From NCBI GenBank assembly GCA_023254055.1, contig JALQYN010000041.1, positions 1 to 64,000 on the forward strand: a stretch of DNA of 64,000 nt. The letters are read 5' to 3'. Below, piece by piece: positions 28,555 through 34,320 of this stretch. Position 1 is the stretch's first letter; each line of letters opens with the position of its first letter. The notes under the pieces are model-generated. The model had not been told where the DNA came from. It was given only the letters and a program-made list of their open reading frames with translations, and searched no databases. The position numbers and the translations under genes are program-made. Source of the stretch: Polaribacter sp. (GTDB lineage: Bacteria; Bacteroidota; Bacteroidia; Flavobacteriales; Flavobacteriaceae).

Positions 28555-31230
28555 TTATAAATTGTATGCAATACTAAACATTATAATTCTTGGTAATATA
28601 TAGTTTTTAGTGTCTGAAATTAAATAATCAGAAAAACGATTGCTTTGTTTAAACGTGGTGTTAAAGAGGTTGGTAGCCTGTATTTTATAGCTCCAAGCGC
28701 TATCATCATTTTTATAAGACAATGCTGCGTTTGCTAATTCGTAGGTGTTTATTTGATTTAAATTTTTATTTTGATAATTAGAACGAGCATAGTCAAAATT
28801 AAAAATAAACCCTTTTAAGAAACTATAATCTATATTTAGATAAGGTTCTGAATGTATAAATTCTGACTTAGAATTACCAGAAGAATAATTACCAATAGTT
28901 CTTTTATATCCAATTTCTATGGCTGGAAAATTATCAAATAGTGTTTCTATGCCAACATCAACAGTATAACTATTACTTTTATTAGTTTGGTTTTTATTGT
29001 TAATATTCTGCAGGTATTTAGATACATTAGCGTTTCCTTGTAAACTGTATTTTAGTTTTTTTATAGTTTTATTAATTAAACCACTAAACATCCAGTTTTC
29101 TGAGGGATTGCTAATTAATTGAGTTGTTAAAAATCGGTTTGCTCTTTGTGTTGGATCTAGATTTGTTTCATCAAACATGACTATGTTATTAAACCCTTTA
29201 ATTTTTTTAGTGTAATTTATACTTGCATTCATCATTAAGCCTCTATACAAACTAAACCTACTATAGTAGATGTTTGCATTGTGATACAATTCATTTTCTA
29301 GATTTTCATTTCCTTTAAAAACCGAATTGTACGATTGTAAATAAAACTGATTTGCTAGTTTTGATGCATCAGAAAAATTGGTTTTTAAGTTATATCGAAT
29401 TTGTATATTTTTAGATTTATTGAATTCAATTTTTGCTAAAAAATCTGGTAAAGCAATCCATTTAGATTTCGAAAAATGGATTTGCTGATCTACATTCCAA
29501 TTGAAATTGTGTACCGCTACTCCTTGTTTTACTGTGAAAATGCCAGTTCTAAATTTATAATGCAATCCTAGAAAGAAATCGTTCAAGATAAAACTAACAT
29601 TGTTTCCAAATCCGTTAGATGAAAAATCGTTATAAGAGCCATTGTCTAATTCTTGCTTGTCTGTTGTTAAGAAATGTTCATTTGACAAACTATTACCAAC
29701 AGTTGTGTAAATATGATTGTGATTGTTGATTACCCAAAAATGTTTAAATATAGAGTTAAAGCGTTGTTGTTCTATTTCTTTATTTTGATGTAAACGATAT
29801 GCGTTTTGCGAATTATCAACAGGAATTAGTCCTTGTAAAATTTGATTGGTTGTTTGCCAATAATTGGTCGGGTTATTTTTATCAAAGGTGTAATCTGCAA
29901 TAAAAGAAAAGGTGTGTTTATTGCTTTGTCGTTGATGCCATTCAATATTCTGAGTAATAGAAATTGCATCTGTTTTTCTATTGGTATCAAAGCTATTTTG
30001 TGTGCTATTTATGGTAGACAAAATATCGATCTTATTTTTGTTTTGTGTCTTTTTAACTTGCGTTCTTGCGTACCATTGAGATTTATTATTTGGTGCGTAT
30101 TCTACATTTAATTTTCCGATACCAAATACATTTTCTGCATTTGTTCTATTCTCTTTTTGTTCTGTTATGCTTGTAAATTGATTGTTGCTTTCTTGAAAAC
30201 TGTTGGTATTGGTTTTTGATACAATTGCAAAACCAGAGATGTCTAATTTACTTGAGGCTGCATTTGTAATATGTAAAGCGCCAAACTTATTTTCACTTTT
30301 TAAAATATCGTTACTATTTAAAAATTGCGCAAAATCATCTCTTCCCCATTTAAAGTTTCCGTTAAATACAGCATTGATACCACCTTGAAAATTCATGTAA
30401 TCTCTAAACGTGAAGGTTTTTTCGCCTGTGTTATTTAGGTTTCCAATAAAATTGACATTTGTTTTTGGACTGTAGTAAAACAGATTGGCATTTGTTCTAT
30501 AATAGTTCTGATGTCCTTTACCTGCTTCAACATCGCCAAACATAAAATTCTTTTTGTCTTTTTTTAGTTTGATGTTCATTGCCATTTCATCAGAGTCTGA
30601 AATGTTTTTTAAAAAAGCAACTTCGTTGTAATTGTCTAAAACTTCTACTTTATTTACTGCATTTGCAGGAATATTATCTATGGCTAATTTTGTACCACCT
30701 CCAAAGAATTTTTTTCCTTCAACGAGCATTTGGGTTACTTTTTTCCCATTTACAATAACGTCACCATTTTTATCAATTGCTACACCAGGCAGTTTTTTTA
30801 ATACGTTTTTTAGTTTTCGTTCTGTTCCATTTACAAAATGTTTTGTATTGTATATTGTAGTATCTTGTTTTACTACGATTGGCATTTCAATAACTACTTC
30901 ATCCAATTGGTTTTTTGCTTCTTTTAAGATAAAGTTTTTAATGGTGGTTTTAGTTGCTCTAAACAGGTGATTTATTGGCTCAAAACCCATATAACTTATA
31001 CTTATGGTGTATTCTTCTCCTTTTGTTAATTCTAACCGATACAAACCATCATTATCTGTAATTGCAAATTGTAAATTTTTGGTTTTATCTTTAGGCTTGG
31101 CAATAACATTGGCAAAAGTTAGAGAGTTTTGCAAACTATCTTTTACGCTCCCTTTTAGAGTAATAGTTTGTGCGTTAGTAATAATTGTATAACCAAACAA
31201 TAAAATTGCAGCAATGATTTTTTTTAGCAT
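28555..31230 (-). CDS. outer membrane beta-barrel receptor-like protein with CarboxypepD_reg-like N-terminus
   Basis: 891-aa ORF; signal peptide; ITLKGSVKDSLQNSLTFANVIAKPKDK, plug-like KKLPGVAIDKNGDVIVNGKKVTQMLVEGKKFFGG; adjacent to GLPGLI gene. Confidence 0.85.
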   Translation of the reverse strand: MLKKIIAAILLFGYTIITNAQTITLKGSVKDSLQNSLTFANVIAKPKDKTKNLQFAITDNDGLYRLELTKGEEYTISISYMGFEPINHLFRATKTTIKNFILKEAKNQLDEVVIEMPIVVKQDTTIYNTKHFVNGTERKLKNVLKKLPGVAIDKNGDVIVNGKKVTQMLVEGKKFFGGGTKLAIDNIPANAVNKVEVLDNYNEVAFLKNISDSDEMAMNIKLKKDKKNFMFGDVEAGKGHQNYYRTNANLFYYSPKTNVNFIGNLNNTGEKTFTFRDYMNFQGGINAVFNGNFKWGRDDFAQFLNSNDILKSENKFGALHITNAASSKLDISGFAIVSKTNTNSFQESNNQFTSITEQKENRTNAENVFGIGKLNVEYAPNNKSQWYARTQVKKTQNKNKIDILSTINSTQNSFDTNRKTDAISITQNIEWHQRQSNKHTFSFIADYTFDKNNPTNYWQTTNQILQGLIPVDNSQNAYRLHQNKEIEQQRFNSIFKHFWVINNHNHIYTTVGNSLSNEHFLTTDKQELDNGSYNDFSSNGFGNNVSFILNDFFLGLHYKFRTGIFTVKQGVAVHNFNWNVDQQIHFSKSKWIALPDFLAKIEFNKSKNIQIRYNLKTNFSDASKLANQFYLQSYNSVFKGNENLENELYHNANIYYSRFSLYRGLMMNASINYTKKIKGFNNIVMFDETNLDPTQRANRFLTTQLISNPSENWMFSGLINKTIKKLKYSLQGNANVSKYLQNINNKNQTNKSNSYTVDVGIETLFDNFPAIEIGYKRTIGNYSSGNSKSEFIHSEPYLNIDYSFLKGFIFNFDYARSNYQNKNLNQINTYELANAALSYKNDDSAWSYKIQATNLFNTTFKQSNRFSDYLISDTKNYILPRIIMFSIAYNL

Positions 31231-31235
31231 TAAAC

Positions 31236-31976
31236 TTAATTTCTTTTAAAACGATTTTTATTAAAGTGAACTATTAGGCTGTCTAATTTTTTTTGTGAGA
31301 TATACTTATTTTTCTCTTTGAATTCAAAATTAAATTTTTCATTAATGTTCATCTTTATTTCTTTTGCAAAAAATGTTATTCTATTTTCTGTAAGCTCAAG
31401 AATGAGTCCTGGTAACCCGCCATACCCCTTTGGTCCAAACCCAAAAGGAATACTTGGGCAATACCATGCTTCAATTATTAACCCTTTTTTAAAAATAGAT
31501 TTTGTTATTGCTTTATAACACCTATATCCTCCAATTGTTTTCTCTTCTTGGGTTAATTCCCATTTTACTGAATCTAAATTTGTTTTAACATTAAATTCTT
31601 CTCCTAGAGTTTTGATCTTTTTTAAAGTAATCCTGTTTTTTAAATCTGTATAAATTATATCTTTTGCTTTTATTATAGCCATAACAAAAATCATTTGTTT
31701 GTCAAAATCTAAATTTAACATTTTATTCATTGAAAAAATAGATTCAAACTTGTTGAACGTTAAATTAAAAGACATTTTATTTTGATAGTTTATTATACTG
31801 TTATTAATTAATTCAAGGTTGCCTTTTAACCCGTTCTTTTTTTCTTTTTCAATTAGATCCTTACTTATAAAATCATTTTTTACCTTATAGACATACTGAA
31901 CTTTATTAATGTTTTCTTGACAAAAATTAAGATTAGAAAACCCTAAGAATAGTACAATTATTAATATTCTTTTCAT
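31236..31976 (-). CDS. GLPGLI family protein (copy B)
   Basis: 246-aa ORF; YRCYKAITKS...IEAWYCPSIPFGFGPKGYGGLPGLILEL. Confidence 0.92.
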   Translation of the reverse strand: MKRILIIVLFLGFSNLNFCQENINKVQYVYKVKNDFISKDLIEKEKKNGLKGNLELINNSIINYQNKMSFNLTFNKFESIFSMNKMLNLDFDKQMIFVMAIIKAKDIIYTDLKNRITLKKIKTLGEEFNVKTNLDSVKWELTQEEKTIGGYRCYKAITKSIFKKGLIIEAWYCPSIPFGFGPKGYGGLPGLILELTENRITFFAKEIKMNINEKFNFEFKEKNKYISQKKLDSLIVHFNKNRFKRN

Positions 31977-32035
31977 ATTAAAATTTATTTATAAAATTTG
32001 AGACTAACCTAAAGAAGTTAGTCTCAATTATTTAT

Positions 32036-32266
32036 TTAATTATAATAACCTGGAATTGCATCAACATTTTCCTCACAGATATTAAAAACTCCTTCAGCAG
32101 TATTAGATGCCAATTGAACATCTCCAGTAAACGCGACCATAAATTCATATGCATCCAACATTTGTTCAAAACAATAATCATTATTAATTTTATTAATAGT
32201 TGAATTTGCATTTATTATTGTACTTGTAGTACATATAAAAACGATGCTTAATAGTATTTTTTTCAT
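32036..32266 (-). CDS. small exported two-Cys protein (copy B)
   Basis: 76-aa ORF; signal peptide MKKILLSIVFICTTSTIINAN; NNDYCF-X30-CE shared with 33369-33677. Confidence 0.75.
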   Translation of the reverse strand: MKKILLSIVFICTTSTIINANSTINKINNDYCFEQMLDAYEFMVAFTGDVQLASNTAEGVFNICEENVDAIPGYYN

Positions 32267-32564
32267 TTCATAACAATTTTTATTGAGTGGTTCACACTCG
32301 TTATTTTTTTATTCTGAGTTTATTATGAATAAACAAGTATAAAACTCTTAAAACTTGTAAGAAAGATCTACTTTTGTAACTCTTTTCTTGTGTGTTAATT
32401 ATAGCTAATTCATAACCAGTTATTTAAGTTAAACATTTATGTAAGGTATTTTAGTTCTTAAAATTATAACCTCAGAAGATTTTTTTATTGCAATTTTAAA
32501 TAAGGTTTTTTATTTTGAGTTTTGAATTTTTATCTCCCAACTAAATATTTTATTTTCTAAGTAT
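32267..32564 (-). promoter_or_regulatory. conserved leader/promoter region of module copy B
   Basis: Manually alignable to 33691-33980; includes GAGTG-N5-CACTC inverted repeat at 32285-32299, 18 nt upstream of the ATG. Confidence 0.65.
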
Positions 32565-33326
32565 TTATTTATTGTTCTTGAAAAATTTCGGAAACATCGC
32601 TCTTGCTTTCTTTTCTGTAAATTCCTCAAATTCTTTCTCGGTTAATTTAATCCCTTTTTTTAGAGGTTTTAAAGCATGGTTTTTCGTTTTCAAAAAATCA
32701 ATTTTTGTCGCTCGTAAGTTCATTTTACCATTGTCTAATTCTAAAATTAATCCAGGTAAACCAAAAAATTTAGCGGGGCCAAAAAAACTAGGCAATTCTG
32801 GACAAAACCAAGCAATAACTTTTGACTTGAAAATTCCTTTATGATTAGAAACCGTATCTTCTGTAGTTGCTTTATAACATTTAAAATCACTAATGAATTT
32901 GAATTCATTAGTGATTTTCCATTTTTTTGCCTCTATTTTAATTAGAAAATCATCACCCATAAAATTAAATTGATTAAGGTAAACACCTTCTTTTTTATTT
33001 ACGTAAAATTTACCACTTGTTCCTCCAATAGAACCCGCTACCTCTTTAAAATTAATGTTTGGGTTGTTCATTTTAAATTCATTGATACTAAATAATGAGT
33101 GTTGGTTTTCTATGGTTAACTGGTAAGATATTTCTTTTGAGTATTTTGCCAATAATGAATTTATAGCCCCGATTTCATTTTTAAAAGATTTGGTAATAGA
33201 AGTATCAAGTTTTGAACGATACTCTTTAACGTATGTAATGTTCAAAAACACATCTTTTTGAGAAAAAACATTTTCAGAGTTACTTATAAACGTTACTAAT
33301 AAAATATAGGATAAAATTTTTTTCAT
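32565..33326 (-). CDS. GLPGLI family protein (copy A)
   Basis: 253-aa ORF; FKCYKATTED...VIAWFCPELPSFFGPAKFFGLPGLILEL; signal peptide. Confidence 0.92.
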   Translation of the reverse strand: MKKILSYILLVTFISNSENVFSQKDVFLNITYVKEYRSKLDTSITKSFKNEIGAINSLLAKYSKEISYQLTIENQHSLFSINEFKMNNPNINFKEVAGSIGGTSGKFYVNKKEGVYLNQFNFMGDDFLIKIEAKKWKITNEFKFISDFKCYKATTEDTVSNHKGIFKSKVIAWFCPELPSFFGPAKFFGLPGLILELDNGKMNLRATKIDFLKTKNHALKPLKKGIKLTEKEFEEFTEKKARAMFPKFFKNNK

Positions 33327-33368
33327 ACTACTGCAAATTAATTAAAATAAATAAATTCAATTGTTTAT

Positions 33369-33677
33369 CTAATTTGTATTTATTAAAAGCCCTATAAGTA
33401 TTAATGCTTCGCAAGATTTTTTCATTTGATAGAATAAAGTCAAAGAAGTTTGAAATGATTCTCCACTTTTTTGCGAGACAATAAAGACTTCTGCTGCAAA
33501 ATCAAAACATAAATTGTTGATTAAGATAGTTGAATTTTCTAATGCTAAATGATTATCACTATTTATATCTAATTTGTTTTCTAATAAAGGTTTGGTATTA
33601 GTTATTATAGTGTTTGAAGTGTTTCCAATAGTTGATATTCCTAGAATAAAAACTAAACTTAAAATTATCTTTTTCAT
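33369..33677 (-). CDS. small exported two-Cys protein (copy A)
   Basis: Start trimmed to MKKIILSLVFILGISTIGNT; NNLCF-X30-CE spacing identical to copy B. Confidence 0.72.
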   Translation of the reverse strand: MKKIILSLVFILGISTIGNTSNTIITNTKPLLENKLDINSDNHLALENSTILINNLCFDFAAEVFIVSQKSGESFQTSLTLFYQMKKSCEALILIGLLINTN

Positions 33678-33690
33678 AGTTATTTTTTTT

Positions 33691-33980
33691 GAGTGTATCA
33701 CACTAGTTATTTTTTAATTATTGAGTTTTAATGAATAAACAAGTCTATAACTCTAAAAACTTGCAAGAAAATTTACTTCTAAAGGTTTTTTCTTTTATTG
33801 TTAAGTATAGCTAAGTCATTCCTTGTTGGTTTTAAGTGAAATAATTAAATAAAATGTTTTTCTTTTATAAAGTTAACCCCAGAAGACTTTCATTTTCATA
33901 GCAATCTCTATTAAGGTTTTTCTTTTTCGCTTTGTAAAGTTTATAATAGGTTTTTTAATTTCCAAATATTTTAATTCCCT
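33691..33980 (-). promoter_or_regulatory. conserved leader/promoter region of module copy A
   Basis: Homologous to 32285-32564; AGTGT-ATC-ACACT inverted repeat at 33692-33704; shared ATGAATAAACAAGT, TATAGCTAA.TCAT and CAGAAGA blocks. Confidence 0.65.
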
Positions 33981-34041: not shown

Positions 34042-34071
34042 GTTTCTTTTTCATTTTATTTAGTAATTTTG

Positions 34072-34320
34072 ATGAAAAAAGCTATTAATGATATGGAAAA
34101 AGAAAAACCTCAAGCGAAAGCTGCTAAAATTTTACAGCGAATAATTAAGAAAAGACTAGAGTTAGGAATTACACAAAAGGAATTAGCGATTGAGTTGTAT
34201 TTGTCTTCAAACGGGTATTTTAAAATTGAAAAAGGATATACGAGTTTAAGTGTACTACGTTTGCTAGAAATAGCGAAAGCTCTTAAAGTAAACCCCTGTG
34301 ATTTCTTTGAAGACTTGTAG
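34072..34320 (+). CDS. XRE-family helix-turn-helix regulator
   Basis: RLELGITQKELAIELYLSSNGYFKIEKGYTSLSVLRLLEIAKALKVNPCDFFE; first ATG at 34072 (ORF track uses TTG at 34069), alternative ATG 34093. Confidence 0.9.
   Translation: MKKAINDMEKEKPQAKAAKILQRIIKKRLELGITQKELAIELYLSSNGYFKIEKGYTSLSVLRLLEIAKALKVNPCDFFEDL

Follow-up and report, generated by a model that had tools for sequence, protein, structure and literature searches.

The window analysed here is a 64,000-nucleotide (nt) stretch of Polaribacter sp. (assembly GCA_023254055.1, contig JALQYN010000041.1, positions 1 to 64,000, forward strand); the source assembly is a draft, 85.5% complete, and Polaribacter is used in the sense of GTDB. 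Twice over on its minus strand it carries a leader, a gene for a small exported cysteine (Cys) protein and a gene of the GLPGLI family, in that order, followed by a receptor-like gene. The module recurs across the genus, and its copies fall into two halves: the leader and the signal peptide are nearly constant, and the mature peptide and the adjacent GLPGLI protein vary together. Furthermore, on the strand opposite the peptide genes the leader appears to encode a structured RNA of about 110 nt, which is predicted from a TAnnTTTG box, a closing stem (P1) and a run of U residues, and whose pairing covaries in a strand-specific manner in relatives.

Similarity of the two units

Both units lie where the original prediction, made from the letters of the window and its open reading frames (ORFs), had placed them, and the leaders are as alike as it had claimed. 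A whole-genome search, which found just two leader copies in this assembly, aligned them at 76% identity over 219 nt (expect value, E, 1.9e-34), and the best ungapped segment is 81% identical over 99 nt. The local alignment score of 185 compares with 25.3±3.4 in 1000 dinucleotide shuffles (maximum 40); since it is far above every shuffle, the similarity is not an artefact of AT-richness. It continues into the signal peptides, which are 63% identical over 24 amino acids. Beyond this point the DNA of the mature peptides (22 against 20±3 shuffled) and that of the GLPGLI genes (27 against 30 shuffled) both score at chance, no alignment was obtained for the two mature peptides, and the GLPGLI proteins are 30% identical.

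The prediction had gone on to regard the whole unit as duplicated, and this part has to be given up: with similarity limited to the leader and signal peptide there was no recent whole-unit duplication, and the pair looks instead like an old or shuffled duplication in which the leader was retained. An ordinary recent tandem duplication, with the leader match a coincidence of AT-rich sequence or without meaning, would fit one genome with two tandem copies, but it is already refuted by the leader and coding scores above and by the recurrence of the leader in 40 genomes (see below), and can be given practically no weight.

The features of the locus are as follows (models R2 and R3 are described with the RNA).

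34069..34320, plus strand: XRE (Cro/C1)-type helix-turn-helix (HTH) regulator, 83 amino acids, divergent from unit 1; Pfam HTH_3, E 5e-11
33775..33908, plus strand: predicted non-coding RNA, copy 1, divergent from unit 1; R3 27.2 bits, E 0.0037 over the window
33774-33781, plus strand: -7-like box of RNA copy 1, TACTTCTA; P1 is largely degenerate in this copy
33731..33763, minus strand: core inverted repeat of leader 1, GCAAGTTT...AGACTTGT, with a possible second, interleaved stem
33692..33704, minus strand: putative pre-start hairpin of unit 1, AGTGT/ACACT; other leaders have paired equivalents of different sequence
33369..33677, minus strand: small exported Cys protein of unit 1, 102 amino acids from the ATG; no Pfam or NCBIfam family
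32565..33326, minus strand: GLPGLI family protein of unit 1, 253 amino acids; TIGR01200, E 2.9e-37
32370..32500, plus strand: predicted non-coding RNA, copy 2, divergent from unit 2
32369-32376, plus strand: -7-like box of RNA copy 2, TACTTTTG
32325..32357, minus strand: core inverted repeat of leader 2, ACAAGT...ACTTGT
32284..32300, minus strand: putative pre-start hairpin of unit 2, CGAGTG/CACTCA
32036..32266, minus strand: small exported Cys protein of unit 2, 76 amino acids; the invariant pair is Cys32 and Cys64
31236..31976, minus strand: GLPGLI family protein of unit 2, 246 amino acids; TIGR01200, E 1.3e-40
28555..31230, minus strand: TonB-dependent-receptor-like outer-membrane protein, 891 amino acids; CarbopepD_reg_2, E 5e-11

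If the GTG at 33701 is used, the small ORF of unit 1 is 110 amino acids long. The HTH_3 domain of the regulator is above its Pfam cut-off (42.9 bits against 23), as is the N-terminal CarbopepD_reg_2 domain of the outer-membrane protein (42.9 against 32.2); carboxypeptidase-regulatory-like N-terminal domains are common in TonB-dependent receptors of Bacteroidota. The Plug match of the latter protein is weak (13.4 bits against 23.9, E 0.11) and, because it is under the cut-off, the protein is named only receptor-like. A PADLOC scan for anti-phage defence gave no match for the peptides, the GLPGLI proteins or the receptor, and generic HTH matches only.

Recurrence of the module in Polaribacter

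Across 168 genus genomes there are five occurrences of a leader-core motif, every one at such a locus, and none of its reversed control. When 85,462 species were scanned, true matches were confined to Polaribacter or to Flavobacteriaceae records of metagenome-assembled genomes (MAGs); the matches L030, L031, L033 and L036-L040 of that scan do not lie at modules, most being in or near unrelated genes, and were set aside. A sequence-only leader model (R1) finds the leader in 40 of the 168 genus genomes, with E <= 1.8e-5 in 35 of these 40, and the copies are often in tandem, with up to five within 10 kb. Among 60 leader copies read, an automatic search places a small exported Cys ORF after 49, as a rule 45-70 nt downstream, and inspection adds three more (L028, L089 and L103), giving at least 52 of 60. 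At 42 leader loci a GLPGLI gene is present at 40, a TonB-like receptor gene downstream at 37 and a divergent XRE homologue at 20. The proposed fixed partnership of a small secreted protein with GLPGLI and a receptor-like gene is thus borne out beyond the window; the genes named in the prediction are all present, although it had overlooked the divergent XRE gene and the opposite-strand structured RNA.

The chromosomal site of the window, flanked by the genes of a MoxR-type ATPase and an LpxH-like protein, holds cassettes with other contents in two more genomes: one (L026) has peptides of the beta type described below and a different receptor, and the other (L028) has another peptide and two GLPGLI genes. 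In the latter, a MAG, the small ORF at L028:7730-7999 begins with CTG or GTG where its relatives have ATG. A few leaders (L090 leader 8295, L106 leader 847, L092 leader 6797) precede exported lipoproteins or other exported proteins with no small Cys peptide. Several divergent XRE genes have perfect 5' hexanucleotide repeats (AGAGAA or AAAGAA, about 7-11 copies) coding (RE)n or (KE)n (L077:6683-7036, L080:9465-9737, L083:6205-6546, L085:5988-6326, L092:6220-6549, L094:6041-6310 and L102:5681-5956); as these are in frame, they would vary the length of the regulator rather than switch it on or off. The BM10 cassette has beside it a small gene (L041:6489-6719) whose product carries a leader of the double-glycine type (LSRAEQKQVFGG) and may be an exported peptide unconnected with the module.

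A predicted structured RNA on the opposite strand

Inspection, followed by a script, revealed that the outer ends of the leader pair with each other, CCTCYGYTTG with CAARCRGAGG, to form the stem P1. In 25 sequences 98.8% of the P1 cells pair. Of the two strands, only the one opposite the peptide gene gives consistent pairs, with 55 A-C cells, which become wobble pairs there, against 12 G-U cells. The arms are about 80-100 nt apart and the 3' arm is followed by the U-run. A second model, R2, built without any window sequence, gathered 70 RNA copies, and 66 distinct sequences were used for covariation. In an alignment fitted to the structure, 97.7% of the P1 cells hold standard pairs, both sides change in 7 of the 10 pairs, and 50 cells are double-changed against 8.5±2.7 when shuffled; slid versions of P1 drop to 33-53% pairing. 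RNAalifold recovers P1 unaided, though on the first nine leaders it gave no structure because the upstream arms were misaligned.

Shortly before the 5' arm most GLPGLI-type copies have one of the boxes TACTTTTG, TATCTTTG, TACCTTTG, TAACTTTG or TACATTTG, all of the form TAnnTTTG, which is the promoter (-7) consensus of Bacteroidota as quoted in PMC6414381.

In the window itself, copy 2 scores 36.3 bits with R2 (E 6e-4 per genome) and 55.5 bits with the P1-based model R3 (E 2.9e-9), the latter including copy 2 itself; R3 detects both copies on the plus strand, copy 1 being absent from the alignment behind it. P1 is weak in the window; the covariation evidence is from the leaders of relatives.

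Rfam 15 gave no plausible match at the RNA positions; matches to MIR (a microRNA), Rp_sR47 (a Rickettsia small RNA) and Histone3 are far under the gathering scores and were dismissed as chance or as lying elsewhere. A single riboswitch in the 5' untranslated region (UTR) of the peptide gene was rejected for P1, since the wobble pairs work on the opposite strand only, and an attenuator leader of the XRE gene is disfavoured because many copies have neither XRE nor another gene on the RNA strand past the terminator. In several species short tandem repeats (TGCCTAC/TGCTTAC) stand right after the RNA terminator (L077 near 7250 and 9595, L079 near 10820, L080 near 9150).

Other repeats in the leader

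Between the RNA and the peptide gene lies an inverted-repeat core (ACAAGT/ACTTGT, ACCAAT/ATTGGT or AGAAGT/ACTTCT), possibly with an interleaved second stem; a possible H-type pseudoknot was seen in it by eye, with ambiguous strand counts. The putative pre-start hairpin has many compensatory forms (AACCT/AGGTT, AACCCA/TGGGTT, CGAGTG/CACTCA). Strand preference of the repeats is weak or absent (K1, 8 G-U against 3 A-C; K2, 25 G-U against 32 A-C). The core and pre-start repeats could be either structures of the 5' UTR or operators, with the XRE protein as a possible binder.

The small exported peptides

Alignment of 38 peptides shows a near-constant signal peptide, MKK-ILSLVFVxATGxxMNA, and two Cys columns that are invariant or nearly so (both are invariant in a set of 35); apart from this pair the mature peptides are hypervariable. 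Acidic peptides make up 48 of 51 (median isoelectric point, pI, 4.05), and 12 of the 51 have four Cys residues in the mature part, typically as CxxxC...CxxxC or CxxxxC. A second class, recognised by eye in L026, L027 and part of L090, has a beta-like stretch between the Cys residues. No Pfam or NCBIfam family, and no bacteriocin family, was above cut-off for the peptides.

The peptide of unit 2 was modelled as a monomer from a shallow alignment, with helices at 30-47 and 50-66 (predicted local distance difference test, pLDDT, about 86-93 in the helices; predicted template modelling score 0.50) and with Cys32 and Cys64 close to the open end of the hairpin. A PDB sequence search with the peptide gave only weak matches, of E 0.13 or worse. 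Like the plant alpha-hairpinins (CxxxC-n-CxxxC), the four-Cys subset, and this subset alone, typically has that Cys pattern, and the two-Cys peptide is modelled as a helical hairpin; the fold is a prediction and the disulfides are putative, no sequence or structure match was found, and the resemblance is probably convergent. The window peptides do not match NVEALA (PF14055) either, and a relative of the type seen in other genera reached 10.4 bits against a cut-off of 27 (E 0.56).

GLPGLI proteins and co-diversification

Both window genes are clear members of the GLPGLI family (TIGR01200; Porph_ging, PF09697), with 139.6 and 128.6 bits against a curated cut-off of 50. Both proteins contain the GLPGLI motif, and G189, P191 and G192 of the unit 1 protein are invariant in 39 sequences. 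The core GLPGLI pair elsewhere in this genome (C43) differs from the window units in that neither a leader nor an ORF for a small exported Cys protein precedes it. The structure model of the unit 1 protein (pLDDT 87.7) shares its fold with the bowl-like N-terminal domain of PNGase F-II (4r4x/4r4z) and with that of the PNGase 7zgn (E 3e-7 to 4e-6, probability 1.00, about 15% identity); 7zgn was also matched by profile. Unlike these enzymes, the window protein consists of this domain alone and lacks a glycanase part. Weaker matches were to an ependymin-related protein and to RseB. The modelled fold would suit a binder of a peptide or of a hydrophobic ligand.

Similarity between mature peptides correlates with similarity between the adjacent GLPGLI proteins (Mantel r 0.40, p 2e-4; r 0.37, p 2e-4 after controlling for signal-peptide similarity), in a test that leaves shared ancestry partly in. 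Among tandem neighbours the signal peptides are 72% identical, and the mature parts (25.5%) and GLPGLI proteins (35%) are both at background; leader identity is 89% within a genome against 78% between genomes. From these values it looks as though variable halves have been exchanged beneath a homogenised leader and signal peptide. The adjacent GLPGLI proteins are basic in 44 of 45 cases, with a median pI of 9.6.

Distribution of the RNA outside Polaribacter

R2 matches 14 of 400 genomes of the family, in 11 genera of Flavobacteriaceae. With R3, order- and phylum-wide sets added a single match outside the family, which is weak (E 0.0035) and in which no peptide context was seen; the family-, order- and phylum-wide sets are drawn samples and do not prove that the RNA is absent elsewhere. 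At loci of other genera it stands divergently in front of small exported Cys proteins accompanied by GLPGLI-type genes (L111, L112, L113, L133, L134, L136), but also, by eye, beside NVEALA-like small Cys proteins and a lipoprotein of about 390 amino acids (L135, L137, L138, L140, L142, L144; the small proteins of L138 were seen only in part). These NVEALA-like sequences have endings such as LNTANAE, and some of the loci carry a DUF1573-like gene. At three RNA loci (L139, L141, L143) there is no clear small Cys ORF. Since the RNA also stands beside small Cys proteins without GLPGLI, it is linked to small secreted proteins more than to GLPGLI, a wider scope than the partnership described in the original prediction. 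A 66-amino-acid DeoR-type HTH gene lies upstream at the NVEALA-like loci L137, L142 and L144.

No library searched contains a family for the peptides or for the RNA, the search for the RNA covering Rfam and not the Rfp small RNAs. The latter, newly described in Flavobacterium psychrophilum (PMC9723704), are likewise independent small RNAs of Flavobacteriaceae, most of them without an Rfam match.

Discussion

The anatomy of the module is well supported, and confidence in a mechanism is moderate. The arrangement could be that of cassettes in which one half stays constant and the other varies, supplying swappable pairs of secreted peptide and binder for recognition or antagonism, a proposal given an even chance here. 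The constant half would be the leader, with its predicted opposite-strand RNA gene, inverted-repeat core and pre-start hairpin, together with the signal peptide; the variable half would be the mature acidic peptide, with two or four Cys residues, and the downstream GLPGLI gene. The peptide would be exported by Sec and would probably fold into a helical hairpin closed by a disulfide. Its binder, in the periplasm or on the outer membrane, would be the GLPGLI protein encoded next to it, which is basic and modelled as bowl-shaped, and the TonB-like receptor would move or sense the complex. Units would be amplified in tandem and their variable halves swapped beneath the homogenised leader. Such swapping would be expected for interactions under diversifying selection, for example recognition of, or antagonism towards, neighbouring cells.

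Several results weigh against this proposal. On inspection there is no conserved -33 box at standard spacing upstream of the -7 box of the predicted RNA, and in the window copy 2 has a weak P1 with mismatches and copy 1 has lost most of it. The RNA shows no preference for its own peptide mRNA, the cognate duplex energy of -28.26 being matched by -28.24 for non-cognate pairs (mean rank 0.49 on a scale of 0-1). The peptide model, besides being a monomer from a shallow alignment, has no significant structural match in the PDB; core GLPGLI proteins, which have no partner peptide, are basic too, so that the match in charge is unspecific; and the remaining shared ancestry may account for part of the Mantel correlation.

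Alternatively, the peptides may be carriers that scavenge ligands or metals, or ligand-binding subunits of the TonB-like receptor, their variability reflecting different nutrients. The receptor found downstream at most loci speaks for this, as do the bowl-like fold of GLPGLI with its weaker similarity to RseB and ependymin-like carriers, and the acidity of the peptides, which differ from typical membrane-active bacteriocins, these being cationic. However, tandem neighbours diverged to background level under a near-constant leader and signal peptide would be unexpected for nutrient carriers, and this explanation is considered rather unlikely. A pheromone role, in which GLPGLI and the receptor would return the exported peptide as a signal to the XRE regulator and the leader in a feedback loop, is less likely again: the small proteins are exported, a divergent XRE gene is present at nearly half of the loci and the conserved inverted-repeat core could be its operator, but the adjacent XRE gene is missing at 22 of the 42 loci, and the RNA loci of other genera have different small HTH genes nearby or none.

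Two alternatives remain. The leader could be promoter and operator DNA only, with the inverted repeats as protein-binding palindromes and no opposite-strand RNA. The symmetry of the core and pre-start repeats and their poor strand preference would agree with this, and compensatory changes could mark operators of changing specificity; it is nevertheless improbable given the wide separation of the P1 arms, the strand-specific wobble, the U-run after the 3' arm and the -7 box before the 5' arm. Most improbable of the four is a type I toxin-antitoxin system in which the exported peptide would act on membranes as the toxin, with the divergent RNA as an antisense antitoxin against it. The layout is that of tisB/istR-like type I pairs, where the gene for a small hydrophobic peptide has a divergent small RNA, and the small hydrophobic N-terminus is shared as well; here, however, cognate complementarity is lacking, and a membrane toxin would not typically consist of a signal peptide and an acidic mature part with paired Cys residues.

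To return to the cassette proposal, its wider form is put forward with a little less confidence: the RNA would be an undescribed class of structured RNA, so far confined to Flavobacteriaceae, that marks and controls diversifying loci of secreted Cys microproteins of several unrelated kinds (GLPGLI/TonB-type and lipoprotein-type), and would be the regulatory signature that the loci of a so far unrecognised interaction system based on peptides have in common, with peptide/GLPGLI pairs swapped at the conserved joint between leader and signal peptide. The logic of the parts, a secreted peptide, a partner and a receptor under RNA-linked control, is familiar; the leader is the more surprising part, compared with the widespread partnership of peptide and GLPGLI.

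GLPGLI proteins occur in 136 of 148 sampled genomes of the genus and yet three papers are all that mention them in the open-access collection searched, in which NVEALA is not mentioned at all. A fixed, co-diversifying peptide partner gives a handle on the function of one subset of GLPGLI proteins, and the RNA model is a probe for small secreted Cys proteins without an annotation family in the 11 sampled genera. The export, surface or signalling system first suggested for this locus is plausible, and the role of the module is probably a cell-to-cell or surface one.

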